This document shows positions 12,974 to 62,113 of a stretch of 64,000 nt of DNA, in pieces (the first letter of the stretch is position 1; the number at the start of each line of letters is the position of its first letter). Source of the DNA: Caulobacteraceae bacterium (GTDB lineage: Bacteria; Pseudomonadota; Alphaproteobacteria; Caulobacterales; Caulobacteraceae). The position numbers and the translations under genes were made by a program. The stretch covers positions 23,610-87,609 of the forward strand of contig PLRV01000018.1 in NCBI GenBank assembly GCA_003164925.1. The letters run 5' to 3'. Below the pieces are notes generated by a model. That model saw nothing but the letters and a program-made list of their open reading frames with translations, had not been told where the DNA came from and searched no databases.

Positions 12974-12982
12974 GATCCCCTC

Positions 12983-17456: not shown

Positions 17457-17523
17457 CTCCGCCTGTCCCGGCCTTCGCGGGGCTGGATCATATTATTCCG
17501 CCGCTTCTTCCACCCGTCCGCCC

Positions 17524-19016: not shown

Positions 19017-19148
19017 CGGCGTGCAGATATCACACGGGAAAAAAAAACGCTTCCGATCCCATCAGTGGGCTGGCGCCGCCTTTACAAATGCTGCGTAAAA
19101 ACAAACATCCGTGATGTCGGGTCTGCGCCCGGCAGGGGATTCGTTCTG

Positions 19149-20051: not shown

Positions 20052-20130
20052 CGCGCGAGCGTCATCAGCGCTTTACAAACTCCGGTTGTTCTTGGCCAAT
20101 GCTGCCCAATAGGGGCGTTGGGAGGCGACC

Positions 20131-43928: not shown

Positions 43929-44009
43929 AGAGAACGACGCGTCTAGGCGGAATCGTACTCTAGAATGTAGGGCCTGATTCAGTCTTCAAGACGAAGGCGT
44001 CAGGCTCTA
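43929..44009. repeat. Two-hairpin dispersed repeat, copy 3 (shortened)
   Basis: Same orientation as copies 1 and 2. Hairpin 1 (43929-43961) has lost the inner right arm but keeps TCTAGGCGGAATCGT. Hairpin 2 (43968-44009) keeps GTAGGGCCTGATTCAGTCTTC. It lies between the convergent Thr-rich lipoprotein and transglutaminase genes, and its outer edge supplies the latter's TAG stop. Confidence 0.82.
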
Positions 44010-44891
44010 CGCCAGACCGGACAGACGCCGCGGCCGCTCGCCGGTGTCGGCCTCGTAAGCCGAGGCAGGCTGGAACTGGCATTCCTCGGTGATCACCTTG
44101 AATTGAATCAGGTCAATCGGCGTGAAAGCGGTGGTGATGGCGACATCCGTCGCATCTCGGCCCCGGGCCATCGGGATGCGTCCGATCCGGGGGGTGTTGT
44201 GACGTGCGTCGAAGGTCATCCATTCATCGCCGATATAGGCTTCGAACCAGGCGCTGAAATCCATGGGCGAATCCATTGGCGGAACGCCGATATCGCCCAG
44301 ATAGCCCGCGCAATAGCGCGCCGGCACGTTCATGCAACGGCACAAGGTGACAGCGAGGTGGGCGAAATCGCGGCAGACGCCTACGCGTTCTTCGTGGGCC
44401 TCCCAGGCCGTGCGCGTCGGCCGGGCGTGACCATAGCCAAAGGCAATACGTTGGTGGGTGTAGTCAACGATGGCCTGGACCCGCTCCCACCCCGGCTTTG
44501 TCGACCCGAACAGGGACAGGGCCAACGGGGTCATGCGATCAACTTCGCAATAACGGCTGGCTAGCAGATAGAGCAGAGCTTCCTCGGGGAGTTCCTCGAT
44601 CGGGACCTGGCGAGCATCCGGGCGAACGGGATCGGCTTCTCCGCTGTCCCAGACAACAAAATCCGCAGACAGCGTGATCGGACCGGCCGGCGCGACCAAG
44701 CGCGTGCAGATATTTCCGTGTATATCCATAAATCTCGATGAGCGAATGTCAGGGGAAACGTAAATTGTATCCGGCGTTTCCATATCGGATACTCGAGATG
44801 GATGCACGCTTAACGATAAAATCATCGGCGTTTTCGCATGACAGTTGTATATTAGTTCAAACCCTGCGCGGATATGCATCGTGGTTTCCAT
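44007..44891 (-). CDS. Transglutaminase-like cysteine peptidase-fold protein
   Basis: A 294-residue protein with a transglutaminase-like core: the Cys of ERVGVCRDFAHLAVTLCR (about residue 170), the His region around WFEAYIGDEWMTFDARHN with the Asp near 225, in the order Cys-His-Asp. The N-terminal part has the beta-rich entry domain seen in bacterial transglutaminase-like proteins. No signal peptide is clear, so a cytoplasmic place is likely; the family includes peptidases and amidases whose targets are often unknown. Start could be the second Met (MHIRAGFE). Its upstream stretch is unusually A/T-rich. Confidence 0.85.
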   Translation of the reverse strand: METTMHIRAGFELIYNCHAKTPMILSLSVHPSRVSDMETPDTIYVSPDIRSSRFMDIHGNICTRLVAPAGPITLSADFVVWDSGEADPVRPDARQVPIEELPEEALLYLLASRYCEVDRMTPLALSLFGSTKPGWERVQAIVDYTHQRIAFGYGHARPTRTAWEAHEERVGVCRDFAHLAVTLCRCMNVPARYCAGYLGDIGVPPMDSPMDFSAWFEAYIGDEWMTFDARHNTPRIGRIPMARGRDATDVAITTAFTPIDLIQFKVITEECQFQPASAYEADTGERPRRLSGLA

Positions 44892-45505: not shown

Positions 45506-47809
45506 ATGGCGGCTCACGCTCTGAGGTTGGTGAAATCTGCGTTTGATGTCGGCCAGACCACCGATAAGCCAAACTCGGTCGTCCTGATCGGCAGCTATTC
45601 GCCAAGACGATGCGGCATCGCCACCTTCACCAGCGACGTGTACGCGTGTCTCGTCGCGGCCCGGCCCAATCTGCGCTGCGACGTGTTCGCCATGACCGAT
45701 CACGGCGGCCCTTACGATTATCCGCCGGAGGTCACCCTCGAAATCCCCTCCGAGCAGCCGATGGCCTACCAGGCGGCCGCGGCCAAGCTCGGCGAAATCA
45801 ACCCTGACGTCGTGTTCGTGCAGCATGAATTCGGGATCTATGGCGGCCCGGCCGGCGAACACCTGATGCTGCTTCTGGAGGCCACGGATCGGCCTATCGT
45901 CACCTTGCTCCACACGGTGCTTGACCAGCCCGACCCCGATCAGCGCCGGATTTTCGAACGGCTGCTCGCTCGGTCCGCACGGCTGATCGTCATGGCCGAG
46001 CATGGGCGCTCGATCCTGCGCGAGACCTGGAAGGTTCCGGGCGACAAGGTCGCCGTCATCCCGCACGGCGCGCCGGACCGGCCGTTTGGTCCGACGGAGC
46101 CGTTCAAGGAGAAGCTCGGTTTTGCCGGAAAAGACCTGCTGTTCAGCTTTGGCCTGCTCTCGCCCAACAAGGGGCTGCAAAACGTCATTCGAGCGCTGCC
46201 CGCTATCGTCAAGCAGCGACCGAACGTCATCTACGCCATCCTGGGCGCCACCCATCCGCATCTCATCGCCAAAGAAGGCGAACGCTACCGGAAGAGTCTT
46301 GTCGAGCTGGCCCGCGAATTGGGGGTCGAGCGCCACTTGCGGCTGATCGACGAATACGCCGACACGCCGCGGCTCATTGAATATCTGCAAGCGGCCGACA
46401 TCTACCTCACGCCTTATCTGAATGCGGCCCAGATCACGTCCGGCACCTTGTCCTACGCAGCGGCTCTGGGGGTTCCGATCGTTTCGACCCCCTATTGGCA
46501 CGCCAAGGAACTGCTGGGCGACGGGACCGGACGCCTGACGCCGTTCGGAGACAGCGTGGCGATCGCCGAGCAGGTCACAGAGTTGCTCGAACAGCCCGAT
46601 GTGCGCCACGCTCTGCGTCAACGTCTGTATGCCAAGGCGCGCGATACCGTCTGGAGCTGTTTCGCCGAGCGCGCCCTATCGTTGCTGGCCCAAGCCCGGG
46701 TCCTGGGCGCTCCCACCCGGTTGTCGCCCGCTCCGACGCCGTATGCGGCGCTCTCGCTGGACGGCGTGCGCCGCCTGACGGACGATTGTGGAATTCTGCA
46801 GCACAGCCTGTACGGCGTACCCGACCGTCGTCACGGCTACTGCGTGGACGACAACGCCCGCGCGCTCCTTCTGATGAATCGCCTTCCCGGGCCAGCCAAT
46901 GCGGAACGGCGACGTCTGACCTCCACCTACGCCGCCTTCGTGCAATACGCATGGAATCCGGACTGCGGGCGCTTTCGAAATTTCATGAGCTATGAGCGCG
47001 TGTGGCTCGAAGAAGCGGGTTCGGAGGACAGCACCGGCCGGGCGTTCTGGTCTGTGGCCGATACGGTCGCGCACACCGCTGATCCCGCCCTGCGCCGATG
47101 GGGCGCGGCTCTTGCTGGCGAGGTCCTTCCTCATCTGGCGGAATTGACGTCGCCCAGAGCGATCGCCTTTGTCCTTTTGGGTCTGTCCGAACTGATCGAA
47201 GCAGGCTTTGGCGGTGAGGATGCGCTCGAACTGGCGCGCGACAAGCTGAACGTGCTCAAGCAGCTCTTGGCCCGCTGCGAGGCCGAAAACGCGCCCTGGT
47301 TCGAGATGTCCCTCGCCTATGATAACGCTCGGCTGCCCGAGGCGATGATCCGCGCGGGCGTCGCCTTGGACGACCCGCCGGCCGTGGCGGCGGGCCTTCG
47401 GACGCTCAAGTGGCTGTGCGCCCGGCAGACCTCGGACGAAGGCCTGTTCCATCCGATCGCGACGGCGGATATCGGACTGCCGCTCAACGCCCGCACCCTG
47501 TTCGACCAACAGCCGGTCGAGGCGGCCGCCATGATCGATGCCTGCGAAGCGGCCTTCCGCCTCGTGCATGACGTCCGATGGAGCGAGGAGTGCGACCGCG
47601 CTTTCGCTTGGTATTTTGGCGCCAACACCTTGGGCGCGCAGATCGCCCAGCCATTCGGAGATTGCTTCGACGGTTTGACCTGGCGGGGCCCAAACGAGAA
47701 TATGGGTGCAGAATCGGTGCTGTCCTTGCAGTTGGCGACCTGCGCTCATGCCCGGGTCGTTGCTCGAGGGTTGGACACGACAAAGACGGCGGTGCTGCCG
47801 CTAAGCTAG
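45506..47809 (+). CDS. Two-domain protein: GT4 glycosyltransferase plus (alpha/alpha)6-type domain
   Basis: A 767-residue cytoplasmic protein. Residues 1-400 form a GT-B glycosyltransferase: SYSPRRCGIATFTSDVY, VQHEFGIYGGPAGEH, FGLLSPNKGLQNVIRALP, and a donor-binding part with SGTLSYAAALGVPIVSTPYW. Residues about 415-760 are helical with GYCVDDNARALLLMNRL and WRGPNENMGAESVLSLQLA, like an (alpha/alpha)6 toroid found in carbohydrate-active enzymes. The GH130 gene follows 20 bases after. With mannose-1-P-linked genes nearby, the product could be a mannoside, but donor and acceptor are unknown. The ATG at 45506 follows AAGGAAAG. Confidence 0.85.
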   Translation: MAAHALRLVKSAFDVGQTTDKPNSVVLIGSYSPRRCGIATFTSDVYACLVAARPNLRCDVFAMTDHGGPYDYPPEVTLEIPSEQPMAYQAAAAKLGEINPDVVFVQHEFGIYGGPAGEHLMLLLEATDRPIVTLLHTVLDQPDPDQRRIFERLLARSARLIVMAEHGRSILRETWKVPGDKVAVIPHGAPDRPFGPTEPFKEKLGFAGKDLLFSFGLLSPNKGLQNVIRALPAIVKQRPNVIYAILGATHPHLIAKEGERYRKSLVELARELGVERHLRLIDEYADTPRLIEYLQAADIYLTPYLNAAQITSGTLSYAAALGVPIVSTPYWHAKELLGDGTGRLTPFGDSVAIAEQVTELLEQPDVRHALRQRLYAKARDTVWSCFAERALSLLAQARVLGAPTRLSPAPTPYAALSLDGVRRLTDDCGILQHSLYGVPDRRHGYCVDDNARALLLMNRLPGPANAERRRLTSTYAAFVQYAWNPDCGRFRNFMSYERVWLEEAGSEDSTGRAFWSVADTVAHTADPALRRWGAALAGEVLPHLAELTSPRAIAFVLLGLSELIEAGFGGEDALELARDKLNVLKQLLARCEAENAPWFEMSLAYDNARLPEAMIRAGVALDDPPAVAAGLRTLKWLCARQTSDEGLFHPIATADIGLPLNARTLFDQQPVEAAAMIDACEAAFRLVHDVRWSEECDRAFAWYFGANTLGAQIAQPFGDCFDGLTWRGPNENMGAESVLSLQLATCAHARVVARGLDTTKTAVLPLS

Positions 47810-47829
47810 CCTCCAGCCTAAGGTCGACG

Positions 47830-49143
47830 TTGATCAAGATTTTGCCCATCAGGCTGCAAGCCGAGCCCGGCCGCGTCGTCATCCGCCCGTTCCAGATCGC
47901 ACCTGAACCCCGTTCGCAGCATCCGACCGAGCTGGCGCGCGCCCACCGAATCGTTTCGGCGGTCTTGGCCATGGACATGCGCACCTGCCAGGCCGAACTC
48001 GCCCTGGTGACCCGAGACTTCGAACAGCGCCACTGGCAGACCCGACGGGTGTTCCTGGAACGTTTTGAGCAGGTCAAGGCCCAGCTTCATGTCGATGGCC
48101 ATCTGCGCGAGGAGCGCAAGGAGCTGATCGGGGCCTATTTCTGCCACGAGTACTCCTATGCCTCCGCGGCCCTGATGAACCCCTCGATCGTGCCCCATCC
48201 GGATCAGTCCGGGCTGGTGGAAGGGGCGATGCGGGTGGTGCTGTCGCTGAGAGCGGTCGGCGAGGGCCATATCTCCTCGATCGCGTTCCGCGAAGGCATT
48301 TTAGACCATCGCGGCGGCTTCGAGTTGATGTCGCGGCCGCCCTTTTCCGTGGCCGCGGGCGAGAAAATTCGCGCCACCGAAGCGAATGGCCACGTGACGA
48401 CCATTACCCGGTTTGAGGAAGCCAGCCTGTCGGGCACGGTCATTTTTCCCTTTACCGAACAGCAGAGGAACGGTCTGGAAGATCTGCGCCTGGTGCGGAT
48501 GCAGGGCGAGGATGAGGGACTCTACTGCGGCACCTACACCGCCTATTCGGGGTTCAACATCGCGTCGGAAATGATGATGACGCGCGATTTCCGTACATTC
48601 GAACTGCATCCGATAATGGGGACAGCCGCGCGCAACAAAGGCATGGCTCTGTTCCCCCGCAAGGTTGACGGCGCCTATGCCATGATCGGACGCCAGGATG
48701 GCGAGAGCCTATTCTATCTGCGGTCGGACGATCTTCTCACCTGGGGCGAGGGCGAACGGCTCCTGACGGCGCTCTATCCGTGGGAGCTGGTCCAAATCGG
48801 CAATTGCGGCGCGCCGATTGAGATCGACGAAGGCTGGCTGCTGCTGACCCATGGCGTCGGCGCCATGCGCAAATATTCGATCGGCGCGGTCCTGCTGGAC
48901 AAGGCTGATCCCAGCAAAGTTCTGGCGCGCACCGTCCGGCCGATTGTCTCGCCCTCCGATGAGGACCGCGAGGGCTATGTGCCGAACGTCGTCTACACCT
49001 GCGGGGCCCTGGCCCACGGCCGGCAACTGTTCATGCCCTATGGCGTGGCCGACAGCTCCGTGGCGTTCGGTTTCCTGGGCCTGGACGAACTGCTGGGCGC
49101 GATGAGCCCCGTCGCGTCACGGAATAGGCCCGCCGCGCCCTGA
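47830..49143 (+). CDS. GH130-family beta-mannoside phosphorylase/hydrolase (long form)
   Basis: A 437-residue GH130 enzyme with an N-terminal extension of about 110 residues. The five-bladed propeller motifs include MNPSIVPHP, GEGHISSIAFREG, GLEDLRLVRM with the catalytic Asp region (about 215), YCGTYTAYSG, NKGMALFPRKV, IGNCGAPIEI, THGVGAMRKYSIG and VPNVVYTCGA. GH130 members phosphorolyse or hydrolyse beta-1,2- or beta-1,4-mannosides, releasing mannose-1-P in the phosphorylase case. The start is a TTG at 47830, in the only frame that fits. Its 3' end overlaps the minus-strand GH130 gene by 106 bases. Confidence 0.86.
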   Translation: MIKILPIRLQAEPGRVVIRPFQIAPEPRSQHPTELARAHRIVSAVLAMDMRTCQAELALVTRDFEQRHWQTRRVFLERFEQVKAQLHVDGHLREERKELIGAYFCHEYSYASAALMNPSIVPHPDQSGLVEGAMRVVLSLRAVGEGHISSIAFREGILDHRGGFELMSRPPFSVAAGEKIRATEANGHVTTITRFEEASLSGTVIFPFTEQQRNGLEDLRLVRMQGEDEGLYCGTYTAYSGFNIASEMMMTRDFRTFELHPIMGTAARNKGMALFPRKVDGAYAMIGRQDGESLFYLRSDDLLTWGEGERLLTALYPWELVQIGNCGAPIEIDEGWLLLTHGVGAMRKYSIGAVLLDKADPSKVLARTVRPIVSPSDEDREGYVPNVVYTCGALAHGRQLFMPYGVADSSVAFGFLGLDELLGAMSPVASRNRPAAP

Positions 49144-50240
49144 TCCGGCTCAATGCGGCATGGAGGCAAGGTCTCCGGCACAATGAGCGTGGCCGCGCCG
49201 ATACGGTTGTCGGCCATGCCGTAATAAACGTCGAACCGGTCCGGTTGTCCCAGGTCGTCGCGCCGGTCGATGCCCGTCGGGAAGACGACGCCATCCACGG
49301 TTCCCATGATCTCTTCCGCAAGCTGGGGGGAAAGGATCGGTTCGGGTGAGCGATAAAGGATGCGGTGCGGGAACCGCCGGTCCAGAATCATGACGCCGGC
49401 GGAATAGCTATACTTGTGGTGGTCTTGCGTGGAGCCGGCCTGCAGCTTCACCCCGTGGTAGACGAACAGCCAACCGTGCCGGCAAAGGATGGGCGGGGCG
49501 CCGCTGCCGATCTTCAACGCTTCCCACGCGAAGGTCGGCCGAGCCAGACGCCGATGGGCGACGAACTGATGGCCTATCGCCGCCGCCGGGGCTTCCGGAT
49601 GGGTCCGCCAATGCCAATAGGAAATCCAGATGCTTTCGAGTTCCGGCATGATCGGTCGCGGGTTCTGGGGCCTGGCCATGTCCTCCGGCCGGGTTCCGGG
49701 AAATAGCGGCCGGTGGAGCATGGCGACCGAGGGCGCGCCATGCGCGTCTTCGATGAACGCCGGGAATATGACGGCGTCCTTGTCGTCCACGTTTTCGATG
49801 GGGACATCCTTGAACGGGGTGAAGTGCGCGAGCCCCAGCCGTTCCCAACGGAACAAGTCCGGCGAACGGGCGATGGCGATGCGAGGGCCGTTCTGCGACC
49901 ACGCCGTATAGGTCATCACATAGTGGTTGAGCGGCTCGACGAAGCTGATGCGGGGATCCTCGCATCCGCCGCGTCCATCCGGCCACGTCTCGTATTCGGT
50001 TTCCGGCTTGAGCGCGATGCCGAGGCGCTCGACACCGACGGGATCGCCGGCGGCGTCGAACTTCACCCTGGTGATGCCGATTTCGGAGTGGTTGCCGTGT
50101 CCGACGCAGCGGGGGAGCAGATAGAGTTTCCCGTCCGGTCCGCGCGCGACCCCCGGGTTCAGAACCCCTTCCACTTCGCTGGGCAAGTTCGGATCTGGCT
50201 CCATCACGATGCCCAGACGCTTGAGCTGAAACGGGATCAT
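49038..50240 (-). CDS. GH130-family beta-mannoside phosphorylase/hydrolase (short form)
   Basis: A 400-residue GH130 protein, last gene of the ten-gene minus-strand run. Motifs: LNPGVARGPDGKLYLLPR, GGCEDPRISF (about 90-99) with the catalytic Asp, YVMTYTAWSQ, KDAVIFPAFI, HRPLFPG, GSGAPPILCRHGWLFVYHG, YSAGVMILD and FPTGIDRRDD. It starts at the ATG overlapping the stop of the phosphomannomutase-like gene (ATGA). The last 25 or so residues are low-complexity Ser/Arg/Pro and come from sequence antisense to the other GH130 gene. Phosphorylase or hydrolase activity cannot be told from this reading. Confidence 0.87.
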   Translation of the reverse strand: MIPFQLKRLGIVMEPDPNLPSEVEGVLNPGVARGPDGKLYLLPRCVGHGNHSEIGITRVKFDAAGDPVGVERLGIALKPETEYETWPDGRGGCEDPRISFVEPLNHYVMTYTAWSQNGPRIAIARSPDLFRWERLGLAHFTPFKDVPIENVDDKDAVIFPAFIEDAHGAPSVAMLHRPLFPGTRPEDMARPQNPRPIMPELESIWISYWHWRTHPEAPAAAIGHQFVAHRRLARPTFAWEALKIGSGAPPILCRHGWLFVYHGVKLQAGSTQDHHKYSYSAGVMILDRRFPHRILYRSPEPILSPQLAEEIMGTVDGVVFPTGIDRRDDLGQPDRFDVYYGMADNRIGAATLIVPETLPPCRIEPDQGAAGLFRDATGLIAPSSSSRPRKPNATELSATP

Positions 50241-50992
50241 GCGGAAGACTTGCTTTGCCAGGAGAGAATTGTCTCGATCACCTTGCTCGTTTCGGAGGGA
50301 CCGGCGACCTGGATGCAAGTCACGCCAGTGCGCCGGGCTGGATAGTCGTTGCCGCCTTCGAACAGGGCGTCGCCCACGAACAGCATTTCGGGGATATCGA
50401 TGCCCAGCACCTCCTTCAGCTTGCCGATGCCATAAGCCTTGTCGACGCCGGGGCGGGTGACGTCGATGGAGCTCGATCCGCCCATGCCGATCGAGAACTC
50501 CGGCAGTAGAAGATCGAGCTTGCCTTTCATTTCGCGCCGCTTTGCGAAGTCCGGATCCCAGGTCTTCTTCTGGTCCAGCGGCGCTTCTTGGCCGAGGGCT
50601 GACAGGGTGATCTGGCTGCCGCGGTCTTCGATGGTTTCGCCCCAATGTTGGTGCGGCGCGAAACCTGAGGACTGAAAGACGGCATTAAGCGCAGCGATGA
50701 TCTTGGCCTTCTGCTCCGGCGTGAAGTCTTCGGCGTAGAGTTGACGCCACGTTCCGTCATAGGTCAGGAACCGCGTGCCGCTGGTGGGCAGGAGCGACAG
50801 GCGTTTCAGGGGCGCTCCGCTGGGCAGGTGGGCCAGAAGCTGCTTTTCGAATTGCGGCCAGGCGCCGCCCGAAATCACGGCCACCTGGCAGACGTCCAGC
50901 AGTTTGGCGAGCCACTGGCCGACGCTCTTGTCCAGCGGCGACTTGCTTTCGGCCAGGGTGCCGTCCAGATCGAATATGGCAAGACGTTTCAT
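50237..50992 (-). CDS. HAD-family phosphomannomutase, eukaryotic PMM2-like
   Basis: A 251-residue HAD-IIB protein. DxDGT motif I is FDLDGTLAE at residues 7-15; motif II is near VISGGAW; the metal-binding end is FVGDALFEGGNDY near 215. The cap region carries IEDRGSQITLSALGQEAP and MGGSSSIDVTRPGVDKAYGI, which align by eye with the PMM2 cap and core (RNGMLNVSPIGRS; ISFDVFPDGWDKRYCL). Such enzymes interconvert mannose-6-P and mannose-1-P. It sits between manA and a GH130 gene, matching that role. A plain phosphatase cannot be excluded. Overlaps both neighbours by four bases. Confidence 0.78.
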   Translation of the reverse strand: MKRLAIFDLDGTLAESKSPLDKSVGQWLAKLLDVCQVAVISGGAWPQFEKQLLAHLPSGAPLKRLSLLPTSGTRFLTYDGTWRQLYAEDFTPEQKAKIIAALNAVFQSSGFAPHQHWGETIEDRGSQITLSALGQEAPLDQKKTWDPDFAKRREMKGKLDLLLPEFSIGMGGSSSIDVTRPGVDKAYGIGKLKEVLGIDIPEMLFVGDALFEGGNDYPARRTGVTCIQVAGPSETSKVIETILSWQSKSSA

Positions 50993-51972
50993 CGCGCCTC
51001 CGGAATGGCGATTTCGAGGATTGTTGCGGCGCCTGCGGGCGTAAAGCTTCCGGCGCCGACCGCGGCGGGCAACAGCACCACGTCGCCCCGGCGCACCGGC
51101 GTCGCCTGCGCGCCGCCCTCTATCTTTCCCGCGCCGTCAACGCAGACGAGCACCCGGGCCTCGGCCGCGGCGCCGACAGCCAACCGACGCGAGCTCGTTC
51201 GGCGCGTTACGTTGAAGTAGGCGCTGTGGATGAGTTCATCGGCGCCTGCCGACGGATCGAGTTCGATGGGCTTGACCGCGCCGCGATCGAAATCGATGCA
51301 GGCCAGGGCCTGGTCGACCTGCAGGGGGCGGAGCTTGCCGCTCCTGGCGTCCACATGGCCCCAGTCATAGATGCGGAAAGTCACGTCGCTGTTCTCCTGA
51401 AGCTCGAAAGCCATGACCCCGTCGCCCAGGGCGTGCACCGTGCCCGCCTTGATCAACACCGCCTGGCCCGGTTTCGGCGGGAAGCTGGCAAGGCGGTCGT
51501 TGACGTTGGCGGTCGTGAGCGTGCGCAGGTCCTGCGCGGTTGTTCCGGGCTCTAGCCCAGCGTAGATGCGCGCCTTGGGCTTTGCGCGCAGCACAAGCCA
51601 AGCCTCGGTCTTGCCGGTGTCGCCTTTGGGGATCAGATCGGTCTGGTCGTCATGCGGGTGGACCTGCACCGACAGCATCTTTTGCACATCCAGGAATTTC
51701 AGCAGCAGGGGGAAGCGCTCGAACCGCCCCGCCTGACGGCCCAGAAGCGCGTCCTTGCGCTCGTGCATGAGGTCCGTGAGGGTCCGGCCGGCGAGGGGCC
51801 CATTGGCGATCTTGCTGGAGAAATCGGCTCGGTCGCAGAGCACCCACGCCTCGCCGATGGGATCCTCGCCCGGTAGGTCGGCGCCCATGAAACCGCCGAG
51901 TTCGCGTCCGCCCCACAAGCGGTATTGGAACATCGGCTCGAAACGCAGGGGATAGAGGTCAGATGCGGTCAT
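50989..51972 (-). CDS. manA: Mannose-6-phosphate isomerase, class I
   Basis: Zinc enzyme that interconverts fructose-6-P and mannose-6-P. The 327-residue protein shows QVHPHDDQTD (zinc ligands, about 105-114), KTEAWLVL, and the later VHALGDGVMAFELQENSDVTFRIYDWG region with the third ligand and substrate residues. The length fits the shorter class I branch. It precedes the phosphomannomutase-like gene with a four-base overlap, which supports a fructose-6-P to mannose-1-P path. Confidence 0.92.
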   Translation of the reverse strand: MTASDLYPLRFEPMFQYRLWGGRELGGFMGADLPGEDPIGEAWVLCDRADFSSKIANGPLAGRTLTDLMHERKDALLGRQAGRFERFPLLLKFLDVQKMLSVQVHPHDDQTDLIPKGDTGKTEAWLVLRAKPKARIYAGLEPGTTAQDLRTLTTANVNDRLASFPPKPGQAVLIKAGTVHALGDGVMAFELQENSDVTFRIYDWGHVDARSGKLRPLQVDQALACIDFDRGAVKPIELDPSAGADELIHSAYFNVTRRTSSRRLAVGAAAEARVLVCVDGAGKIEGGAQATPVRRGDVVLLPAAVGAGSFTPAGAATILEIAIPEAR

Positions 51973-52012: not shown

Positions 52013-52690
52013 TCATGGGCGGCATCCCTCGCGGATCGCCCTGATCGCCTCGCCGTAGTCGATCGCCTGGAAAATAGCGCTTCCGGCCACGATTGCCGTC
52101 GCGCCCGCTAAGACCGCCTCTGCGGCGTGAGCGCAATCCTGCCCGCCGTCGACTTCGATCACCGGATCCAGACCTCGCTCGTCGCAAAGGCTGCGCATCC
52201 GGCGCACCTTCTCCAGCATCGGCGGCAGGAAGGCTTGGCCTGCGAAGCCGGGATTGACCGTCATCACCAGGACGATATCGCACAGGGGCAAGACCCATTC
52301 GGCCATCTCGGGCGGGGTGGCGGGGTCGATCACGACTCCGGCCTTTAGGCCCAGGGCGCGGACGCGCGAAAGGGTGCGATGAAGGTGGATGGTGGAAGCC
52401 GGCTCCGCCTGGATCAGGATGTGGTCGGCGCCCGCCTCGGCGAAGTCTTCGAGGTAGCGCTCGGGTTCGGCGATCATCAGGTGGACGTTGAGCGGCTTGG
52501 CCGTGGCCGCCCGCACCGCCTTGAGCACCACCGGACCGAAGCTGATGTTGGGCACGAAGCGGCCGTCCATCACGTCGACGTGGATCCAGTCGGCGCCGGC
52601 GGCGTCCAAGGCGCGAACCTCTTCGGCGAGCCGCCCGAAATCCGCCGACAGGATGGACGGGGCAATGAGAGGCAAGCGGCCTGTGTTCAT
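52013..52690 (-). CDS. rpe: Ribulose-phosphate 3-epimerase
   Basis: TIM-barrel enzyme of the pentose phosphate pathway that interconverts ribulose-5-P and xylulose-5-P. Motifs: PSILSADFGRLAEEV, WIHVDVMDGRFVPNISFGP with catalytic Asp and metal ligands (about 34-52), VHLMI, VMTVNPGFAGQAF and VIEVDGGQ. Length 225 is normal. The stop of the upstream aldolase overlaps its ATG by four bases; 41 bases separate it from manA. Confidence 0.95.
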   Translation of the reverse strand: MNTGRLPLIAPSILSADFGRLAEEVRALDAAGADWIHVDVMDGRFVPNISFGPVVLKAVRAATAKPLNVHLMIAEPERYLEDFAEAGADHILIQAEPASTIHLHRTLSRVRALGLKAGVVIDPATPPEMAEWVLPLCDIVLVMTVNPGFAGQAFLPPMLEKVRRMRSLCDERGLDPVIEVDGGQDCAHAAEAVLAGATAIVAGSAIFQAIDYGEAIRAIREGCRP

Positions 52691-53610
52691 GGACGCGCGC
52701 CGTAGATCGTCATGGCGTCGTTGAGCATCTTGAGCGCGTCCGGCCGGGGGCGCTGGAACGAGTTGCGGCCCACGATCGAGCCGAAACCGCCGCCGTCGCG
52801 GATGGCTTCGAACTCCGCATGCAAGGCGCCGTCATCGAAATTGGCCGCGCCGCCTGAGAAAATGACGATGCGTCGGCCCGCAAACGCGCTTTGGACGACA
52901 TGGGCCACCCGCTCGGCCGCCGTCGAGATCGGGATCTTCTCTTTCTCGTAGACCGCCTTGGCGGCAGGCTGCTCGACGTGGTCGCTGGGCAGCTTGACCT
53001 TGATGATGTGGGCGCCGAGCTGGGCCGCGATTTGCGCCGCGTAGGCCACGACATCGATGGCGGTCTCGCCCGCCTCGCTGAGCTGCGAACCTCGCGGATA
53101 GGACCACACGACCACCGCCAGACCCAGGGCCTTGGCCTCGGCGGCTAAGGCGCGCGCCTGGGAGAACAGCGCGTATTGGCGGCTCGATCCCGGATAGATG
53201 GTGAAGCCGATGGCCGCGGCCCCCAGGCGCAACGCGTCCTTGACCTCAGCGGTCTGGGCCTGGTCGGGATCGGGGTCCTCGCGCAGGCTGTCCGCGTCGT
53301 TCAGCTTGAGGATTAGCGGGATTTGGCCAGCATAGTCGCGCGCCCCCGCCTCGATGAAGCCCAGCGGCGCGGCATAGGCGTTGCAGCCGGCCTCGATCGC
53401 CAGCTCGAAGTGATAGCGGGGATCGTAGGCCGGCGGATTGGGCGCAAAGGAGCGCGCCGGGCCGTGCTCGAATCCCTGGTCCACCGGCAGGATCACCAGA
53501 CGTCCTGTTCCGCCCAGCCGTCCATGGCCGAGCAGGCGCGCCAGGTTCGCGAGCGTGCCGGGGTTGTCCGCGCCGTACCAGCTGAGGATTTCCTTTACGC
53601 GCGGCGTCAT
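52687..53610 (-). CDS. fbaB: Fructose-bisphosphate aldolase, class I (FbaB/DhnA type)
   Basis: Schiff-base aldolase that interconverts fructose-1,6-bisphosphate with the triose phosphates. The 307-residue protein shows RLVILPVDQGFEHGPARSF, YHFELAIEAGCNAYAAPLG, and the lysine loop HIIKVKLPSDH (near 208-218) where the Schiff-base Lys lies, plus FSGGAANFDDG and GGGFGSIVGRNSFQRP for phosphate binding. Archaeal-type class I aldolases of this kind are found in many bacteria beside a class II enzyme. It starts with ATG overlapping the stop of the HAD gene. Confidence 0.93.
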   Translation of the reverse strand: MTPRVKEILSWYGADNPGTLANLARLLGHGRLGGTGRLVILPVDQGFEHGPARSFAPNPPAYDPRYHFELAIEAGCNAYAAPLGFIEAGARDYAGQIPLILKLNDADSLREDPDPDQAQTAEVKDALRLGAAAIGFTIYPGSSRQYALFSQARALAAEAKALGLAVVVWSYPRGSQLSEAGETAIDVVAYAAQIAAQLGAHIIKVKLPSDHVEQPAAKAVYEKEKIPISTAAERVAHVVQSAFAGRRIVIFSGGAANFDDGALHAEFEAIRDGGGFGSIVGRNSFQRPRPDALKMLNDAMTIYGARP

Positions 53611-54455
53611 GGAGCACTCCGATTTTCGGGTTCAAGGACGTTCGGGGCGAGAAGGAATCGGCGGACGGCCTTGGCGAAGCCGTCATCCTCATTGCTGTCG
53701 GTCACGGTATCGGCCTGGGCCTTCACAGCGTCGCTGGCGTTGCCCATGGCGATGGAGAAGCCGCTCTGGCGGAACATCAGCACGTCGTTTGGCATGTCGC
53801 CGATCGTGGCGATCCGTGCGGGGTCCAGGCCCAGTTGGCGCGCCAAGTTCAGCACCACGAAACCCTTGGTCGCCTTCGCGTCTGTGATGTCGAGGAAGTG
53901 CGGCTCCGAACGGGTGACGCTGACAGCCGAGCCGAGCCGCCGTTGCGCGAAGGCCTCGGCTGCGGCCACCTTGGGATGGTCATCGCTCACCCCAACGATC
54001 TTGAACACCCGGCCGAAGGGAAGCTCGCCGATGTCAGGCGCGACCTCGGGGACCATCTCGATGATCCAGGCCTCGCGCGCAACGCGAGGACCGTCAGCGG
54101 CGGTCACGAACCATGCGCCGTCCGTGTAGATCCAGATGTCGAGGCCGGTTTCCCGCAGCAGTTGCACAGCGGCTCGGACCGCCTCGGGCGCGATGGGATG
54201 GCTTTCCAGTTCGCGCAGCTTCACATCCATGATCAGGCCCCCGTTGAAGCCGGCCAACGGCAGTTCCAGATCGAGGGGCTCAACGAGCATGCGCATGCCC
54301 TGAGGCGGCCTGGCGCTGGTCAGAGCCAGGCCTATGCCGCTTCGGCGCAGGTCGGCGGCGGCCGCGAGCGCTGCTGGCGTAAGCGTCTTGTCGCGGGTGA
54401 CCAGGGTGCCGTCGACGTCCGCCATCAGGAGCTTGATGTCGCGGGATGGAGTCAT
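53607..54455 (-). CDS. Cof-type HAD-IIB sugar-phosphate phosphatase
   Basis: A 282-residue HAD hydrolase with motif I MADVDGTLVTRD near residue 11, motif II LALTSARPPQGM, the Lys of ATKGFVVLNLARQLG and motif III TIGDMPNDVLMF. The cap domain lies between. Members dephosphorylate hexose phosphates or flavin and other small phosphates; the substrate here is unknown. It overlaps zwf upstream and the aldolase gene downstream by four bases each, so it is made along with central sugar enzymes, which argues for a sugar-phosphate substrate. Confidence 0.88.
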   Translation of the reverse strand: MTPSRDIKLLMADVDGTLVTRDKTLTPAALAAAADLRRSGIGLALTSARPPQGMRMLVEPLDLELPLAGFNGGLIMDVKLRELESHPIAPEAVRAAVQLLRETGLDIWIYTDGAWFVTAADGPRVAREAWIIEMVPEVAPDIGELPFGRVFKIVGVSDDHPKVAAAEAFAQRRLGSAVSVTRSEPHFLDITDAKATKGFVVLNLARQLGLDPARIATIGDMPNDVLMFRQSGFSIAMGNASDAVKAQADTVTDSNEDDGFAKAVRRFLLAPNVLEPENRSAP

Positions 54456-56002
54456 GTCGGCGTCCGCGCCGGCGGCGCCAGGGAACGCCAGGCCCGCTGG
54501 TTCGATCCGGCGATGAGGGAGTCGGCCGCCTCAGGGCCTTCGCTGCCCGAGGCATAGTCGGGAAAGGCCGGAGCTTCGGCGGCCCAGGCGTCAAGCACAG
54601 GCTCGATGATGCGCCAGCCGTGCTCGATCATGTCCGCGCGCATGAACGAGGTCGGATCGCCGATCATGACGTCATAGAGCAGCGTCTCGTAGCCAACGTT
54701 GGATTGCTTGGGGAACCGGTCATCGTAGCGAAATTCCAACTGCGCCGGCGCGAGCGTCATGGCCGGCCCGCGACGCTTCACCTCGAACTGCAGCGAGATG
54801 GTCTCCTGGGGCGCGGCGCGTAGCACGAGCCAGTTCGGGTCCAAGCTCTCCACCGGCGTGCCGCGAAACAGCGCCAGAGGCGCGGCTTTGAAGCGGATGG
54901 CGATCTCGGTGACTCGGGCCGTCAGGTGCTTGCCGGTGCGCACGAAGAACGGCACGCCGGCCCAGCGCCAGTTGTCGATCTCCAACTCCAAGGCGGCGTA
55001 GGTCTCGACTGCGGAATCCCGCGCCACGTCCGGTTCCTGGCGATATCCGGCGGCCTTGCCCTCGGCGCCGGCGCCGTACTGGCCGCGCACGGCCTTGTCG
55101 GGCGTCACGGGCCTGATCGCGGCCATGGTCTCGGCCTTCTTGGCGCGCACTTCCCCGGGCGACAGGTTGATCGGCGGCTCCATGGCCGCCAAGGTCACCA
55201 GGCTCAGCATATGGTTCGGGACCATATCGCGCAGGGCGCCGGCCCGTTCGTAAAATTCCCCGCGCTCTTCCACCCCGACGAGCTCGGCCGCGGTGATCTG
55301 CACATGATCGATACAGTCGCGATTCCAGATCGGTTCGAACAGACTGTTGGCGAAGCGTAGCGCCAGGATGTTCTGGACGGTGTCCTTGCCCAGGAAGTGG
55401 TCGATCCGGAATATCTGCTCTTCGCTCAGGCTCTTCAGGAGCTCGGCGTTGAGCGCCCGTGCGGAGCTCAGATCGTGGCCGAAGGGCTTTTCGATCACCA
55501 CCCGTCGCCATGCGCCATTCCTTTCCTGGGTCAGGCCTGCATCGCCCAGCCGGTCCACCACCGGCCCGAACATCCGGTCCGAAACCGCCAGGTAGAACAA
55601 GGCGTTGCCTTCAGTTCCCCGTTCGGAGGCGGCGTGCTCTAACGCTTGGCCGACAGACGTATAGAGGCCGGCCTCGGTCATATCGCCCTGGACGAACGCC
55701 ATGCGCCGGCTAAGCCTTTCCCAAACGCCGTCGTCGATACGGTCAGCCTGGAATGTGCCGGTCTTGGACTTGACGAGGTCGTCCAGGCCCTGCCGCAACA
55801 TTGCGCGCCACGCGTCTACATCGCTGTTCCGCCGGGCGATGCCGATCAGGGCGAAGCCCTCTGGCAGGGTTCCGGCATGCTCCAGATTGTAGAGCGCTGG
55901 GATCACCAACCTTTTGGACAAGTCGCCGGTGGCGCCGAACAGCACCATGGCGCAAGGATCGGCGGGCTTGAGCGCGCTCGCGGGGCGGGCGTCGTCGGCC
56001 AT
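54452..56002 (-). CDS. zwf: Glucose-6-phosphate 1-dehydrogenase
   Basis: NADP-linked entry enzyme of the oxidative pentose phosphate and Entner-Doudoroff pathways. The 516-residue protein shows the nucleotide-binding LFGATGDLSKRLVIPALY (about 21-38), VVIEKPFGHDLSSA, and the active-site RIDHFLGKDTVQNILALRFAN (about 190-210). Length matches the family. One base after the 6-phosphogluconate dehydrogenase stop and four bases overlapping the HAD gene. Confidence 0.97.
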   Translation of the reverse strand: MADDARPASALKPADPCAMVLFGATGDLSKRLVIPALYNLEHAGTLPEGFALIGIARRNSDVDAWRAMLRQGLDDLVKSKTGTFQADRIDDGVWERLSRRMAFVQGDMTEAGLYTSVGQALEHAASERGTEGNALFYLAVSDRMFGPVVDRLGDAGLTQERNGAWRRVVIEKPFGHDLSSARALNAELLKSLSEEQIFRIDHFLGKDTVQNILALRFANSLFEPIWNRDCIDHVQITAAELVGVEERGEFYERAGALRDMVPNHMLSLVTLAAMEPPINLSPGEVRAKKAETMAAIRPVTPDKAVRGQYGAGAEGKAAGYRQEPDVARDSAVETYAALELEIDNWRWAGVPFFVRTGKHLTARVTEIAIRFKAAPLALFRGTPVESLDPNWLVLRAAPQETISLQFEVKRRGPAMTLAPAQLEFRYDDRFPKQSNVGYETLLYDVMIGDPTSFMRADMIEHGWRIIEPVLDAWAAEAPAFPDYASGSEGPEAADSLIAGSNQRAWRSLAPPARTPT

Positions 56003-56003
56003 C

Positions 56004-57002
56004 TCAGTCCTCCGCCTTTGCGGCCGCCGGATGGCCTTCCTTGTGGCCGCCGAAGCCGAACCGCATGGCCGACAGCAGTCGCTCGGCGAGGGTGTGTTCC
56101 TGGCGCGAGCGAAAGCGCGTGTAGAGGGCGCAGGTCAGGACCTCGGCCGGCACAGCTTCCTCGATGGCGGCCTCAACCGTCCATCGGCCTTCGCCGGAAT
56201 CCTCGACATAGCCGGAAACATGGGCCAGCTGCGGATCGTGCGCGAAGGCGGAGGCGGTGAGGTCGAGCAACCAGGATGAGATGACGCTCCCCCGCCGCCA
56301 GACCTCGGCGATGTCGGGCAGGTTGAGGTCGAGGCGCTGGTCTTGGGGCAAGGCGTCGGAGCCCTTGCCCCGCAAGATGTCGAAACCTTCCGCATAGGCC
56401 TGCATTAGGCCGTATTCGATGCCGTTGTGCACCATCTTGACGAAGTGGCCGGCGCCGGTCGGGCCGGCATGGATATAGCCCTGCTCGGCGCGAGGATCAC
56501 CGTTTTCGCGGCCCTGGGTGCGCGGGATGTCGCCTAGACCGGGGGCGAGAGCCTTGAAGATCGGGTCCAGGCGTTCAACGGCGGCCCTGGGCCCGCCGAT
56601 CATCATGCAGTAGCCCCGTTCTAGTCCCCACACGCCGCCGGAGGTGCCGCAGTCGATATAGTCCACGCCCTTGCCGGCTAGCGCCTTGGCCCGGCGGATA
56701 TCGTCCCGGTAGAAGGCGTTGCCGCCGTCGATAATGGTATCGCCCCGCTGCATCAGGCGCCCGAGGACATCGACCGTGCTTTGCGTCACGTCGCCGGCGG
56801 GCAACATGCACCACACCGTCGCCGGCCGCTCCAGCGCCGCCACCATCTCGTCAAGCGATTTCACGGCTCGGGCGCCGTCCTTGGCCACCACGGCGCCGGC
56901 GTCGGGATTGGCGTCGTAGACAATACAATGGTGGCCCGCTTTCATAAGCCGGCGAGCGATGTTGCCGCCCATACGTCCAAGACCGACGATGCCGATCTGC
57001 AT
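56004..57002 (-). CDS. gnd: 6-phosphogluconate dehydrogenase, decarboxylating (short type)
   Basis: Converts 6-phosphogluconate to ribulose-5-P. At 332 residues this is the short, usually NAD-preferring branch and not the 470-residue enteric type. The Rossmann motif [50 protein letters not shown]-type substrate loop, and the catalytic Lys in [17 protein letters not shown] (about 190) are visible. Twenty bases follow the tal-pgi stop. Confidence 0.93.
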
Positions 57003-57022: not shown

Positions 57023-59851
57023 TCAGCTAAAGGCGTCGTGGATCGCCTGGGCCAGGCGGGGCAGCCCCGAGTCCGCGTCTTTCAGATGCACGCGAAGCGC
57101 GCGCCGTTCACGCTCGATCAGCACGGCCAAGTCGCCGCGGGCCTGGGCGTCCTTGACGACCCCGAAGCTGTACCGGTGATCCGGTATGGCGAGGTCTTCC
57201 GGGTCGCCGCAGGTGATTTGCAGGAACACGCCGCTGTTGGGGCCGCCCTTGTACGCTTGGCCGGTCGAATGCTGGAAACGCGGTCCGAAGCCGACGCAGG
57301 TCGCGGCGCGCGTGCGGTCGCGCACGAAACTGCGCATCTCGGTCATGGCGAAGGTCGCCTCGGGCGTGCGGTCGACATAGGCCAGGAACGCGGCATAGTC
57401 GCCCTCGTCCACGCGGCCGAAGTGGCTCTTCAGATAGCCGGCCACGGTATTGTGCCGGCCGAGCTCGTCGGCGTTACGCGGGTCGGCGTAGACGGCCATC
57501 TCGTCCTGCTCCAGCACGGGTTGCTGTTGCGGCAGGGTGTGGATCTGTTCGTAGGCATCGGTCAGCTTGTGGGTTTCGACCTTGCTGGCCTCAACGTCGG
57601 GCTGATCGAACGGATTGATGCCGATGATCGCTCCTGCGACCGCCACGGCGATTTCCCAGCGGAAAAACTCCTGCCCCAGGGCCTGCTTTCCATTCATCGT
57701 CAAAGTGGCGACGGGGTGGCCGGCCTTCGCCAGGGCCTGCATCGTTTCACGCTGCCTGGGATCGAAGCCGTCCTCCAGCTCGATGTAGGCGAAGAAGCGG
57801 TCCTGGCCATAGATCTCAAGCGGGCCGAGCGGTTCGTCAGCCACCGGGATAAGGCCGCGTCCCTGCTTGCCGGTGCTCTCAGCCAGCAACTGTTCCAGCC
57901 ACGCGGCGATGGGGGCGATGGAAGGGGAGGCGACGATGGTGACCTTGTCCCGGCCCAGGCGGGTCGCGGCCACGCCCATGGCCACGCCAAGCTGCACGCC
58001 CGGGTTTTCCGCCGGCGGCATATCGGCGGCGCAGGCGCGGGTCATGACGCGTGTGGTCTGCAAAAGGCTCAGCAGGTCGAGCCCCATGGCGGCCGCGGGT
58101 GCGAGACCGAATTTCGATAGCACCGAATAGCGGCCGCCGATCGACGGAACGCCATAGAAGATCTCGGCCCAGCCCTCGTCTTTCGCCCGCCTTTCCAGCG
58201 GCGAACCCGGATCGGTGATGGCGACGAAGCGACGGGACGCCGTATCGGCGCCGCAGACCGCCGCGACTCGAGCGTGGAAATAGTCGGCGAATATATTGGG
58301 CTCCAACGTGCTGCCGGACTTGGACGAGACGATGAACAGGGTCTTGTCCAGTCGAACGGCGTTTTCCACGTCCCTGACCTGGGCGGGATCGGTGCTGTCG
58401 AGCATGTGGAACCGAGGCCATCCGAACTGGGGCCCGAACACCGCGGCCAGCACTTCGGGCCCGAGGCTGGAGCCGCCCATGCCCAGCAACACCACGTCGC
58501 TGAAAGCCTCCTGCCGCACATGCTGGGCGAACTGTTGCAGGGGGCCCAGGTCGCCAAGCTCCTGCTCGACGACGTTCAGCCAACCGCACCAATGGTCTTC
58601 GTCGGCGCCGGTCCAAAAGTCGGCGTCGCCGGCCCACAGACGGCGGATGCGTCCCTGCTTGCGCCAGGCTTCCATCTCCTCGCAAAAAGCCGCCGCGGCC
58701 TGGTCCGATCCCGGCTCGATGCGGGTTTCGCCGAAGCTTTGCGGCGCATCGGCCCGCCCGTGTTTGGCGATGGCGGCGAACAGGGAGTCGAAGGCGTCGG
58801 CGAACTGTTGGACGCCGTCGACCGTCAGCTGGCGCGTGATCGCCTCCAGATCGATGCCCAGATCGGCAAAGGCCTTTAGTGTCGCGTTGGCGCCGTCGAG
58901 GTCCAGTTCGATGGCGTTTGGCGTCACCACGCCGTGGTCGCGGAAAGCGTCCATGGTCGCCGGCGGCATGGTGTTGACGGTGTCATTGCCGATTAGCGCC
59001 TCGACGTAGACCGTGTCCTTGAGGGTTTTGCTCTTGGCGCCGGTCGAGGCCCACAGGAGCCGCTGGGTCTTGGCTCCAGCCTTTTCCAGGGCTTCCCAGC
59101 GCGAGCCGCTGAAAAGGTCCTTGTACGCGGCGTAGGCGATTTTGGCGTTGGCGATCGCGACCTTGCCGCGCAGGGGCTCGCCCTCAGTTGGATCAGGCAG
59201 GGCGTCGATGGCTTTGTCCGCCGCAGTGTCGATGCGGCTGACAAAGAAGCTGGCGACGCTCGCCGCCTTGGACAGATCGCCGCCCATGGCCTTCAGGTCC
59301 TCGAGTCCGGCGATATAGGCCTCCGCGACCTTGCAGTAGGTCTGTACCGAAAACAGCAGGGTGACATTGACGTTGACGCCCTGGCCGATCAGGGCGCGGA
59401 TCGCCGGCAGGCCCGCGTCCGTGGCGGGCGCCTTGACCATCAGGTTCGGCCGGTTCACCGCCGCCCACAGGCGCTTGGCCTCGGCGATGGTCGCCTCGGT
59501 ATCGTTGGCCAGATAGGGCGAACATTCCAGACTGACGTAGCCGTCGCGGCCGCCGGTTTCTTCGAACACCCCGCGCAGCACATCCGCCGCCGCCTGGATG
59601 TCGGCCACGGCCAGATGCTCGTAGACGGCGGTGACGCTGGGCGAATCGTGTGAGGCGAAGGCGCTCATCGCGACGCCGTATTCGTCGCTTTCGGCGATGG
59701 CCTTTTCGAAGATCGAAGGGTTGGAGGTGACGCCTTTCAAGCCGTCGCGCTCGATCAGCGTCTTCAGCCCGCTGTCCTCGATCAGGCTGCGCTTCAGATA
59801 GTCGAGCCACGGCGCTTGGCCGCAGCCAGCTAAGGCTTGGAGCGAATTCAC
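57023..59851 (-). CDS. tal-pgi: Bifunctional transaldolase / glucose-6-phosphate isomerase
   Basis: A 942-residue fusion. The N-terminal transaldolase half (about 1-365) has the [13 protein letters not shown] motif and the Schiff-base Lys in [16 protein letters not shown] (about 140). The C-terminal isomerase half (about 385-942) has [35 protein letters not shown] and [20 protein letters not shown]. The start is a GTG ([12 protein letters not shown]) overlapping the tkt stop (GTGA). Such fusions occur in some Alphaproteobacteria and Actinobacteria; channelling between the two activities is not shown. Both halves look intact. Confidence 0.93.
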
Positions 59852-61950: not shown

Positions 61951-62113
61951 GGCCCGCTCTCCGGAAAGTCTCGTGCACGGGTGCAGCCCCTTATTCAAAC
62001 AGAAAGGGCGGCAAAGAGTTGCACGCCGCCGTCAGAGGGGCGCGCCGCAATATGTTCGGAGCCTTGGCCAGGTCGCAGGCGTTGAAGAACGAGCAAGCTG
62101 ATGAGGGACGCGC

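Follow-up and report, generated by a model that had tools for sequence, protein, structure and literature searches.

Two convergent gene groups resembling a mannoside cycle, one of them the tail of a pentose-phosphate operon, in a Caulobacteraceae genome

Two neighbouring gene groups in the window (the whole 64,000-nt stretch of Caulobacteraceae DNA that was analysed) look like a circuit that would make a mannose compound and return its mannose to central metabolism. We give even chances to the reading that the locus encodes a two-module mannoside cycle inside the cell, the recovery arm of which would feed pentose-phosphate enzymes. In the first module, a GT4-like glycosyltransferase (GT4) and its partner GH130a would make or remodel a mannoside from GDP-mannose and/or mannose-1-phosphate (Man-1-P). 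In the second, GH130b would phosphorolyse a beta-mannoside to Man-1-P, which the HAD mutase candidate would convert to mannose-6-phosphate (Man-6-P) and ManA further to fructose-6-phosphate (Fru-6-P). The latter could then be passed to the pentose-phosphate enzymes encoded by the operon to which these genes belong, yielding NADPH and pentoses with no ATP cost for a hexokinase. The product would most likely be a short cytoplasmic beta-1,2-mannoside or mannan, acting as a reserve and/or a stress protectant. In this scheme, we infer every substrate, the direction in which each reaction runs and the product; the bacterial mannogen-like cycle put forward in the initial annotation is plausible but unproven.

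Gene layout and family assignments

Gene content, overlaps, pairing, co-distribution and conserved residues were read directly from the sequences. All five genes lie where the initial annotation had placed them, and their families were upheld by Pfam and TIGRFAM scores above the cut-offs (Table 1); at the scores obtained, chance is no concern for these assignments. The description of the five as one adjacent gene group held only in part, since they are all present but form two opposing units, GT4 followed by GH130a on the plus strand and ManA followed by HAD and GH130b on the minus strand, and the minus-strand genes are the tail of an operon. The 3′ ends of the two units, GH130a and GH130b, overlap by 106 bp. 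We also observed ATGA overlaps at the ManA/HAD and HAD/GH130b junctions, and the TTG start of GH130a is preceded by AAGG. Scans for promoters, terminators and repeats gave nothing exceeding chance.

Table 1. Positions in the window and family matches of the genes of the two units and of the operon
Feature	Position	Strand	Family evidence
GT4-like glycosyltransferase, 767 aa	45506..47809	+	PF00534 66.4 bits, PF13439 41.3 bits
GH130a, 437 aa, TTG start	47830..49143	+	PF04041 107.6 bits (cut-off 26)
GH130b, second GH130, 400 aa	49038..50240	-	PF04041 115 bits (cut-off 26)
HAD, hexose-phosphate mutase candidate	50237..50992	-	PF03332 30 bits, TIGR01484 60.7 bits
ManA, class I mannose-6-phosphate isomerase	50989..51972	-	TIGR00218 129.1 bits (cut-off 116.2)
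rpe, class I fba, Cof-type HAD, zwf, gnd (front part of the operon)	52013..57002	-	ORF coordinates, families
tal-pgi fusion and transketolase	57023..61998	-	PF00923 + PF00342; PF00456

The GT4–GH130a pair

The pair recurs in many other bacteria. One scan of bacterial and archaeal genomes gave at least 585 coding stretches related to GT4, and in all 80 loci that were fetched a GH130a partner stood beside it on the same strand, at a distance of 361 bp or less in 79. The two genes had identical holders among the genomes of the class (8 of 289) and among the relatives (7 of 61), one additional genome carrying only a GH130a fragment. Their trees correlate with r 0.94 in a mirror-tree comparison, a value reached in none of 2000 permutations, which is weak evidence because shared descent can produce such a correlation. 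The pair is also found on conjugative plasmids; in 18 of the 28 GT4-bearing plasmid records, which were examined, we observed GH130 in 17, mannose genes (GMP/PMI, ManA, PMM or AGE epimerase) near the pair in 12 and a HAD of the window type in six.

Apart from GT4 and GH130a themselves, the commonest neighbour gene cluster occurs in at most 28 of the 80 loci. A universal five-gene cluster was rejected: by best matches at E ≤ 1e-8, in flanks that differ in length between loci, GH130b was present in none of the 80, HAD in two and a ManA-like gene in 19 (63–89 bits). For one of these ManA-like proteins there was no Pfam match, its name being that of the plasmid annotation.

The GT-B half of GT4 (residues ∼1–400) contains PF00534, PF13692 and PF13439 above their cut-offs. 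A Pfam search of the C-terminal domain (∼405–767) gave no match, and its profile matches 7tem (putative exported protein YPO2471; 8.7e-13). The closest solved chains, PimA and 3c4q, score only ∼43 bits. EX7E is the motif rule for GT4 enzymes, though some subgroups may be without it; in this protein it is absent, and all 81 sequences have instead Q309 and Y317, which fall near the two Glu residues of PimA in the alignment. As GT4 enzymes are retaining and give alpha products, GDP-mannose would be expected to yield an alpha-mannoside, and GH130 enzymes are not known to cleave alpha-mannosides.

Both GH130 proteins combine PF04041 scores above the cut-off with the catalytic aspartate of GxED, which is Asp218 in 81 of 81 GH130a sequences and is also found in GH130b. 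The nearest solved chains to GH130a are beta-1,2-mannoside phosphorylases and Uhgb_MS. K270, again present in every GH130a and in GH130b, aligns with the NKD lysine of solved beta-1,2 enzymes, and its equivalence to Lys199 of BT3780, a mark of beta-1,2 specificity, was judged by spacing alone. R288 and H341 are conserved in all 81 GH130a sequences. The His that precedes R288 (position 287) is missing, and position 322 is Gln in 80 of the 81, where the aligned PDB beta-1,2 enzymes have Arg or Lys; GH130a appears to be altered near the phosphate site. GH130b has H, R, K and H at GH130a positions 287, 288, 322 and 341 (HRP, K322, H341).

GH130b shows partial sequence resemblance to the BT3780-type beta-1,2-mannosidases, and a Glu adjoins the catalytic Asp as in that group. 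Unlike the BT3780-type enzymes, neither window protein has a Glu at the place of Glu268 or, in a simple hydropathy scan, a hydrophobic N-terminus, and both keep His341 where 5a7v of that type has Asn. We do not favour a secreted hydrolase, given the N-terminus and the residues compared with the BT3780 group. With the basic phosphate-site residues kept and the hydrolase Glu absent, GH130b looks phosphorylase-like.

A retaining GT4 in which EX7E is absent and a GH130a altered near the phosphate site do not account for how a beta-mannoside would be synthesized. Possibly, GT4 builds a primer or core of alpha-mannosyl units, on which GH130a attaches or trims beta-1,2-mannosyl residues. This would reconcile a retaining GT4 with its constant beta-mannoside-type partner; GH130a resembles Uhgb_MS, which is named a mannoside synthase, and in Candida, alpha-mannans carry beta-1,2 caps (PMC4599007). 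However, the acceptor and the product are putative and the changed phosphate site could mean different chemistry, so that we consider such a mixed mannoside doubtful.

In another reading, the GH130 enzymes degrade beta-mannosides of external origin or released by envelope turnover for GDP-mannose synthesis, while GT4 as a consumer builds an alpha-mannosylated glycoconjugate. Salvage of this kind was proposed for Thermoanaerobacter, where the two GH130 beta-1,2-mannoside phosphorylases Teth514_1788/1789 share a cluster with a GT4 and a mannose-1-phosphate guanylyltransferase (Chiku et al. 2014, PMC4264767). The alpha-stereochemistry of GT4 agrees with it, and several plasmids have GMP/PMI next to the pair, while two have PMM there. 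However, the Thermoanaerobacter cluster, as described there, also carries an ABC transporter and a GH5, whereas a Pfam scan of ten of the commonest neighbour clusters of the pair revealed no glycanase or sugar importer (they include an OPT transporter, in 19 loci and on the opposite strand, and an MscS channel, in 16 loci), and the window instead has a mutase and ManA joined to pentose-phosphate genes. We regard salvage as an unlikely account of this locus. Use of imported plant mannan is not favoured either, as a family scan of the two units, like that of the ten neighbour clusters, found no sugar importer or glycanase.

The recovery arm and the pentose-phosphate operon

Read from upstream, the operon runs transketolase, tal-pgi, gnd, zwf, Cof, fba, rpe and then ManA, HAD and GH130b, with 4-nt overlaps linking rpe, fba, Cof and zwf. 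Cof and fba were named by family match, and rpe, zwf and gnd are what we take these genes to be from their sequences. We compared the operon in four genomes, two of them of one genus. The order from tal-pgi to the last gene is the same in the window genome (G000) and in two other genomes that hold the GT4–GH130a pair (G014 and G030), the last slot being filled by two different GH130 lineages in the tree. In the fourth, G012, the operon has the same order but extends only up to rpe, and no match to GT4, GH130a or HAD was found. G014, G030 and G012 each have tal-pgi at the corresponding position, with 65–67% identity.

HAD carries the DxDGT motif and exceeds the cut-offs of PF03332 (22.4 bits) and TIGR01484 (41.8 bits), while the Cof and SPP phosphatase subfamilies match it below theirs. 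Its solved relatives (17 matches, E ≤ 0.001) are all mutases. The best is 4bnd, a Lactococcus alpha-phosphoglucomutase (133 bits over 246 residues; gene presumably pgmH, a name that matches a cited title), compared with 46 bits or less for solved phosphomannomutases. The earlier label of a PMM2-like HAD agrees with the PF03332 score but not with the nearest solved chain. Unlike the Lactococcus enzyme, the window gene sits between ManA and GH130.

Among the relatives, HAD is present in three of the seven GT4 holders and in none of the 54 others (Fisher p 0.001; 0.02 by genus), leaving four holders without it. In the class it occurs in one of 289 genomes, the window's own, so the seven other GT4 holders there are without HAD. 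GH130b has no match in 60 relatives (1e-20) or in 397 genomes of the phylum (1e-30). It is 60% identical to a GH130 on a Nitrobacter plasmid that likewise directly follows, and overlaps, HAD. ManA and HAD are adjacent on one further plasmid.

These distributions bear on whether the ManA–HAD–GH130b tail and the GT4–GH130a pair are unrelated neighbours, HAD being a glucose mutase or a phosphatase of general sugar-phosphate metabolism. In G014 and G030 the pair and the operon are on separate contigs, most GT4 holders are without HAD, and its nearest solved chain is an alpha-phosphoglucomutase. Moreover, among the 40 plasmid rows listed, 24 show HAD overlapping a gene for a heavy-metal ATPase, and on the Nitrobacter plasmid HAD follows a gene annotated as a beta-phosphoglucomutase family hydrolase. 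Against this, HAD is confined to GT4 holders within the sample of relatives, the gene after it is a GH130 in three genomes and on the Nitrobacter plasmid, and a Sphingomonas paeninsulae plasmid likewise carries, all within 10 kb, a broken GT4, GH130a, HAD and a ManA of 52% identity. We judge unrelatedness to be rather improbable.

Returning to the two-module cycle, the proposed recovery through GH130 to Man-1-P, HAD and ManA to Fru-6-P was borne out to the extent that comparative genomics ties these genes together and to the pentose-phosphate operon. Because HAD is nearest to the Lactococcus mutase and GH130b has phosphorylase-like residues, the route from beta-mannoside via Man-1-P, Man-6-P and Fru-6-P to the pentose-phosphate pathway is a fair one to infer. 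The claim that one and the same beta-mannan is made and recovered by a single pathway was not supported; the retaining GT4, the separate contigs, the lack of GH130b matches at the thresholds used and a glycogen synthase family gene speak against it. The latter (PF08323) is present in the window genome and in none of the six other GT4 holders, and replacement of glycogen is not supported.

Known systems and possible significance

The mannogen cycle of Leishmania is fed by an isomerase and a mutase. It resembles the window in having a five-bladed propeller family that handles Man-1-P and beta-1,2-mannan, and in the idea of an intracellular reserve. It differs in using GT108, whereas the window propeller enzymes are GH130 (PF04041) with a GT4 partner; the GT108 chain 6Q50 was absent among their solved-structure matches. 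The window also has its recovery arm in a pentose-phosphate operon. Our literature search, to which subscription papers were mostly closed, found among the papers listed no account of a mannan store in bacteria or of the GT4–GH130a pair.

If the pair makes a mannose reserve or protectant, it would represent a counterpart to glycogen among bacterial carbohydrate stores, and such a store would account for GH130 enzymes without an obvious imported substrate. Speculatively, and with low expectation, the pair may be a widespread, often plasmid-borne machine for a cytosolic mannoside, as a mannogen equivalent in bacteria. In this picture a non-canonical GT4 would supply a product on which GH130a, given its altered phosphate site, would act as a beta-mannosyl synthase, and the pentose-phosphate tail would consume this store to provide NADPH when cells are stressed or short of oxygen. 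That the operon occurs both with the mannose tail and lacking it, and with one or the other GH130 lineage, offers clean, testable predictions.

A gene of the GMP_PMI family is present in the window genome. At a distance of 6–10 kb in the window there are genes for ABC transporters of other types (35087–37009 and 38144–38899).

Families and arrangement of the five genes

The initial annotation had placed a GT4, two GH130 proteins, a HAD and ManA in the window; we found all five genes where it had located them, and their families are secure. The GT4 matched PF00534 and PF13439, both GH130 proteins matched PF04041 (107.6 and 115 bits, cut-off 26), the HAD matched PF03332 and TIGR01484, and ManA belonged to class I, with a TIGR00218 score above the cut-off. 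The genes form two units facing opposite ways, GT4–GH130a and ManA–HAD–GH130b, the latter coupled by ATGA overlaps and starting 40 nt after rpe of an operon having fba, a Cof HAD, zwf, gnd, a tal–pgi fusion and transketolase upstream. The contig ends together with the window.

Positions of window features and of related loci elsewhere
Feature	Location	Coordinates	Strand	Remarks
GH130a start codon (TTG)	window	47830	+	20 nt past the GT4 stop
GH130b start	window	50240	−
Overlapping 3′ ends of GH130a and GH130b	window	49038–49143		106 bp
Transglutaminase-like gene	window	44007–44891	−	divergent, upstream of the GT4
ORF, presumably a LigD-type polymerase domain gene	window	42436–43317	+	judged from sequence
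Short GH130 fragment	window genome, contig C21 (L141)	7002–7334		contains a stop
Divergent full GH130	window genome, contig C21 (L142)	9193–10314		adjoins FecCD-type ABC transporter
C-terminal GH130a fragment	genus-mate G003, contig C25 (L174)	1023–1346		86% identical over 91 residues
GT4, GH130, GH130, GT4	Ilyobacter polytropus plasmid (L125)	4548–10274		fusobacterium plasmid, typed conjugative
Acetate kinase, glucokinase, large beta-phosphoglucomutase family hydrolase, HAD, GH130b, phosphoketolase	Nitrobacter hamburgensis plasmid 2 (L132)	10469–20695		heavy-metal ATPase genes on both sides

A transglutaminase-like relative also lies directly 3′ of GH130a in locus L189 (55% identity), and others near the pair in L098 and L103, with weak matches in L100 and L126.

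Association of the GT4 with GH130a

Scanning of genome contigs with a 13-sequence GT4 alignment yielded at least 585 stretches coding for a relative, of which the best 80, i.e. the closest matches to the window GT4, were kept. The named loci nearest to the window suggest that its organism belongs to Caulobacterales, Alphaproteobacteria. A GH130a-type gene was present on the strand of the GT4 in all of these best 80 loci, at a distance of ≤361 bp in 79 and of 2.9 kb in one (L116). Because these loci had been selected as the best GT4 matches, we used two further samples picked without regard to GH130, consisting of 289 genomes of the class and 61 relatives. GT4 (E ≤ 1e-60) and GH130a (E ≤ 1e-30) were found in the identical eight class genomes, in one of which (G067) both matches were partial, and the holders of a full-length GT4 were also those of a full-length GH130a in the relatives (7/61); the genus-mate G003 had a GH130a fragment only. 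The Fisher p values for this co-distribution, which ignore kinship, were 9e-16 (class) and 2e-9 (relatives). The identities of the two proteins gave a Mantel correlation of 0.94 across 81 loci, which shared descent could also yield.

The full pair was absent from all three genus-mates examined, one of them just 79% complete, and hence we consider it an accessory and probably mobile trait; the fragment in G003 suggests its loss there. Beyond GT4 and GH130a, no gene cluster occurred in more than 28 of the best 80 of at least 585 loci, with a simple gene calling that recovered 78 GT4 and 77 GH130a genes. A Pfam scan of ten of the next clusters gave a Cys/Met PLP enzyme, a rhodanese, QueF, an aminoacyl-tRNA synthetase, a photolyase-related protein, Gcw_chp, HerA, an OPT transporter (19/80 loci) and an MscS channel (16/80); a ManA-like protein (17/80 by this gene calling, 19/80 in the search of the loci) had no match in it. 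These clusters appear to reflect local synteny, chiefly that of Sphingomonas.

The GT4 also matched 28 plasmid records, and the contents of 18 were checked by tblastn. A GH130 was within the displayed stretch in 17 of them, immediately after the GT4 in 13; the remaining record, from Rhizorhabdus wittichii, has a GT4 with no C-terminal domain. A short or broken GT4 occurred in two records, with GH130a some kb off on the opposite strand; on a Deinococcus plasmid the GH130 was more distant in sequence and two genes beyond the GT4. On the Ilyobacter plasmid two GH130 genes precede the GT4, and the pair thus crosses phyla. Mannose genes (GMP/PMI, ManA, PMM or AGE epimerase) were present in 12/18 records, those without being two from Novosphingobium, one unannotated, and the Deinococcus, Ilyobacter and Rhizorhabdus ones. 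The window-type HAD occurred in six, once truncated by the stretch end. A recurring sphingomonad island (three records, a fourth in part) carries GMP/PMI, GT4 and GH130 followed by GrpE, DnaK, DnaJ, HAD, USP and Dps, with zwf ∼7 kb upstream in two; a second type (two records) has GroEL, GMP/PMI, ManA, GT4, GH130 and PMM. Cytochrome bd genes adjoin the pair on a Devosia plasmid. Stress genes (GroEL, DnaK and USP counted) were seen in 7/18 records. These contexts resemble, only suggestively, a low-oxygen-activated Burkholderia locus with USPs, BON and DUF1488 proteins, as described in PMC6127331, whose text mentions neither phosphoketolase nor acetate kinase.

Residues of the GH130, HAD and GT4 proteins

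According to PMC4599007, GH130 phosphorylases bind phosphate through basic residues that the hydrolases lack, and the hydrolase BT3780 works with Glu227/Glu268 and carries Lys199 as the mark of β-1,2 specificity; next to its catalytic Asp stands a Glu, at a position taken by Tyr in GH130_1 and GH130_2. Judged from Asn74 and Asp142, the numbers of its chain 5a7v are those of the paper plus 4; Glu268 was taken as the Glu preceding Cys at chain position 273. This Glu can be read from 4onz in the alignment, where 5a7v is displayed from the Cys onward. In the alignment, Glu is absent from this place in both GH130a and GH130b. The Asn of 5a7v is replaced by His in GH130b and, in the joint alignment, also in GH130a. 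GH130b keeps HRP, K322 and KD like the aligned β-1,2 enzymes. All 81 GH130a sequences keep K270, R288 and H341 and have NKG in place of NKD; no His precedes R288, Asp290 is invariant, and Q322 is found in 80/81. From this residue comparison, GH130b is the better phosphorylase candidate; GH130a might phosphorolyse with altered kinetics, or act as a synthase, as a hydrolase or in some other way. When both types were used for a profile search, the β-1,4 enzymes ranked below the β-1,2 enzymes and Uhgb_MS.

The HAD gave 133 bits over 246 residues with the Lactococcus α-phosphoglucomutase and ≤46 bits with phosphomannomutases, and is a candidate mutase for mannose and/or glucose phosphates. The nearest chains to the GT half, those of the GDP-mannose-dependent PimA and of 3c4q, scored just ∼43 bits, which gives a slender basis for naming its donor. 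Q309 and Y317 occupy the two Glu places of the EX7E motif in 81/81 sequences. For the C-terminal 360 residues, Pfam gave nothing in the window protein and only scattered weak matches across 52 members; the profile of this region matched 7tem (putative exported protein YPO2471; E 8.7e-13). Seven of nine acidic positions checked there are invariant in 81/81 (D448, D449, D508, E600, D667, D722 and E736) and two are conserved in 80/81, which suggests a working catalytic domain.

The operon tail and a possible mannoside reserve

G014 and G030, which belong to a single further genus of the family, share the order tal–pgi, gnd, zwf, cof, fba, rpe, manA, HAD and GH130, with the GT4–GH130a pair on a different contig. 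Their operon GH130 is 47–48% identical to window GH130a and forms a clade (92/91, under the 95 mark) separate from the pair type, whereas window GH130b joins Nitrobacter and Bradyrhizobium plasmid GH130s (100/95); the tree took 19/81 pair-type sequences, and long branches leave its deep joins unsure. By these placements, one slot behind the mutase gene is occupied by two distinct GH130 lineages. On the Nitrobacter plasmid the HAD overlaps GH130b, as in the window.

Among the 61 relatives, fba (E ≤ 1e-60) occurred in exactly four, the window genome, G012, G014 and G030; in G012 the operon stops after rpe, and no GT4, GH130a or HAD matched. The HAD was present in three of the 61, every one a GT4 holder. 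Against such a link, in the class sample (289) it occurred solely in the window genome, the seven other GT4 holders being without it, and searches for GH130b matched nothing in 60 relatives (1e-20) or in 397 phylum genomes (1e-30).

The initial annotation proposed that the five genes form one intracellular β-mannoside reserve cycle, which is reasonable. In the reading we favour, GH130b would phosphorolyse an internal mannoside to Man-1-P, the HAD would convert this to Man-6-P and ManA to Fru-6-P, which would then be oxidised via tal–pgi, zwf and gnd. The synthetic half is harder to account for, since GT4 enzymes are retaining whereas GH130 substrates are β-mannosides. GH130a itself might lengthen a β-chain using Man-1-P, the GT4 might supply an α-primer, or, lacking EX7E, it might behave unusually. 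A GMP_PMI family gene in the genome (397 bits against a cut-off of 373) makes it probable that the organism produces GDP-mannose. A glycogen synthase family gene is present as well and is missing from the six other GT4 holders.

All component families are already known, and mannogen is known from Leishmania. Among the open-literature matches listed, no paper dealt with the conserved pair or described it as joined to a pentose-phosphate operon. PMC4264767 describes a Thermoanaerobacter cluster, interpreted as salvage, which shares with the window a GT4–GH130 neighbourhood.

Of 52 plasmid records with the HAD, 40 were listed; in 24 of these 40 a heavy-metal P-type ATPase gene adjoins it or overlaps with it.
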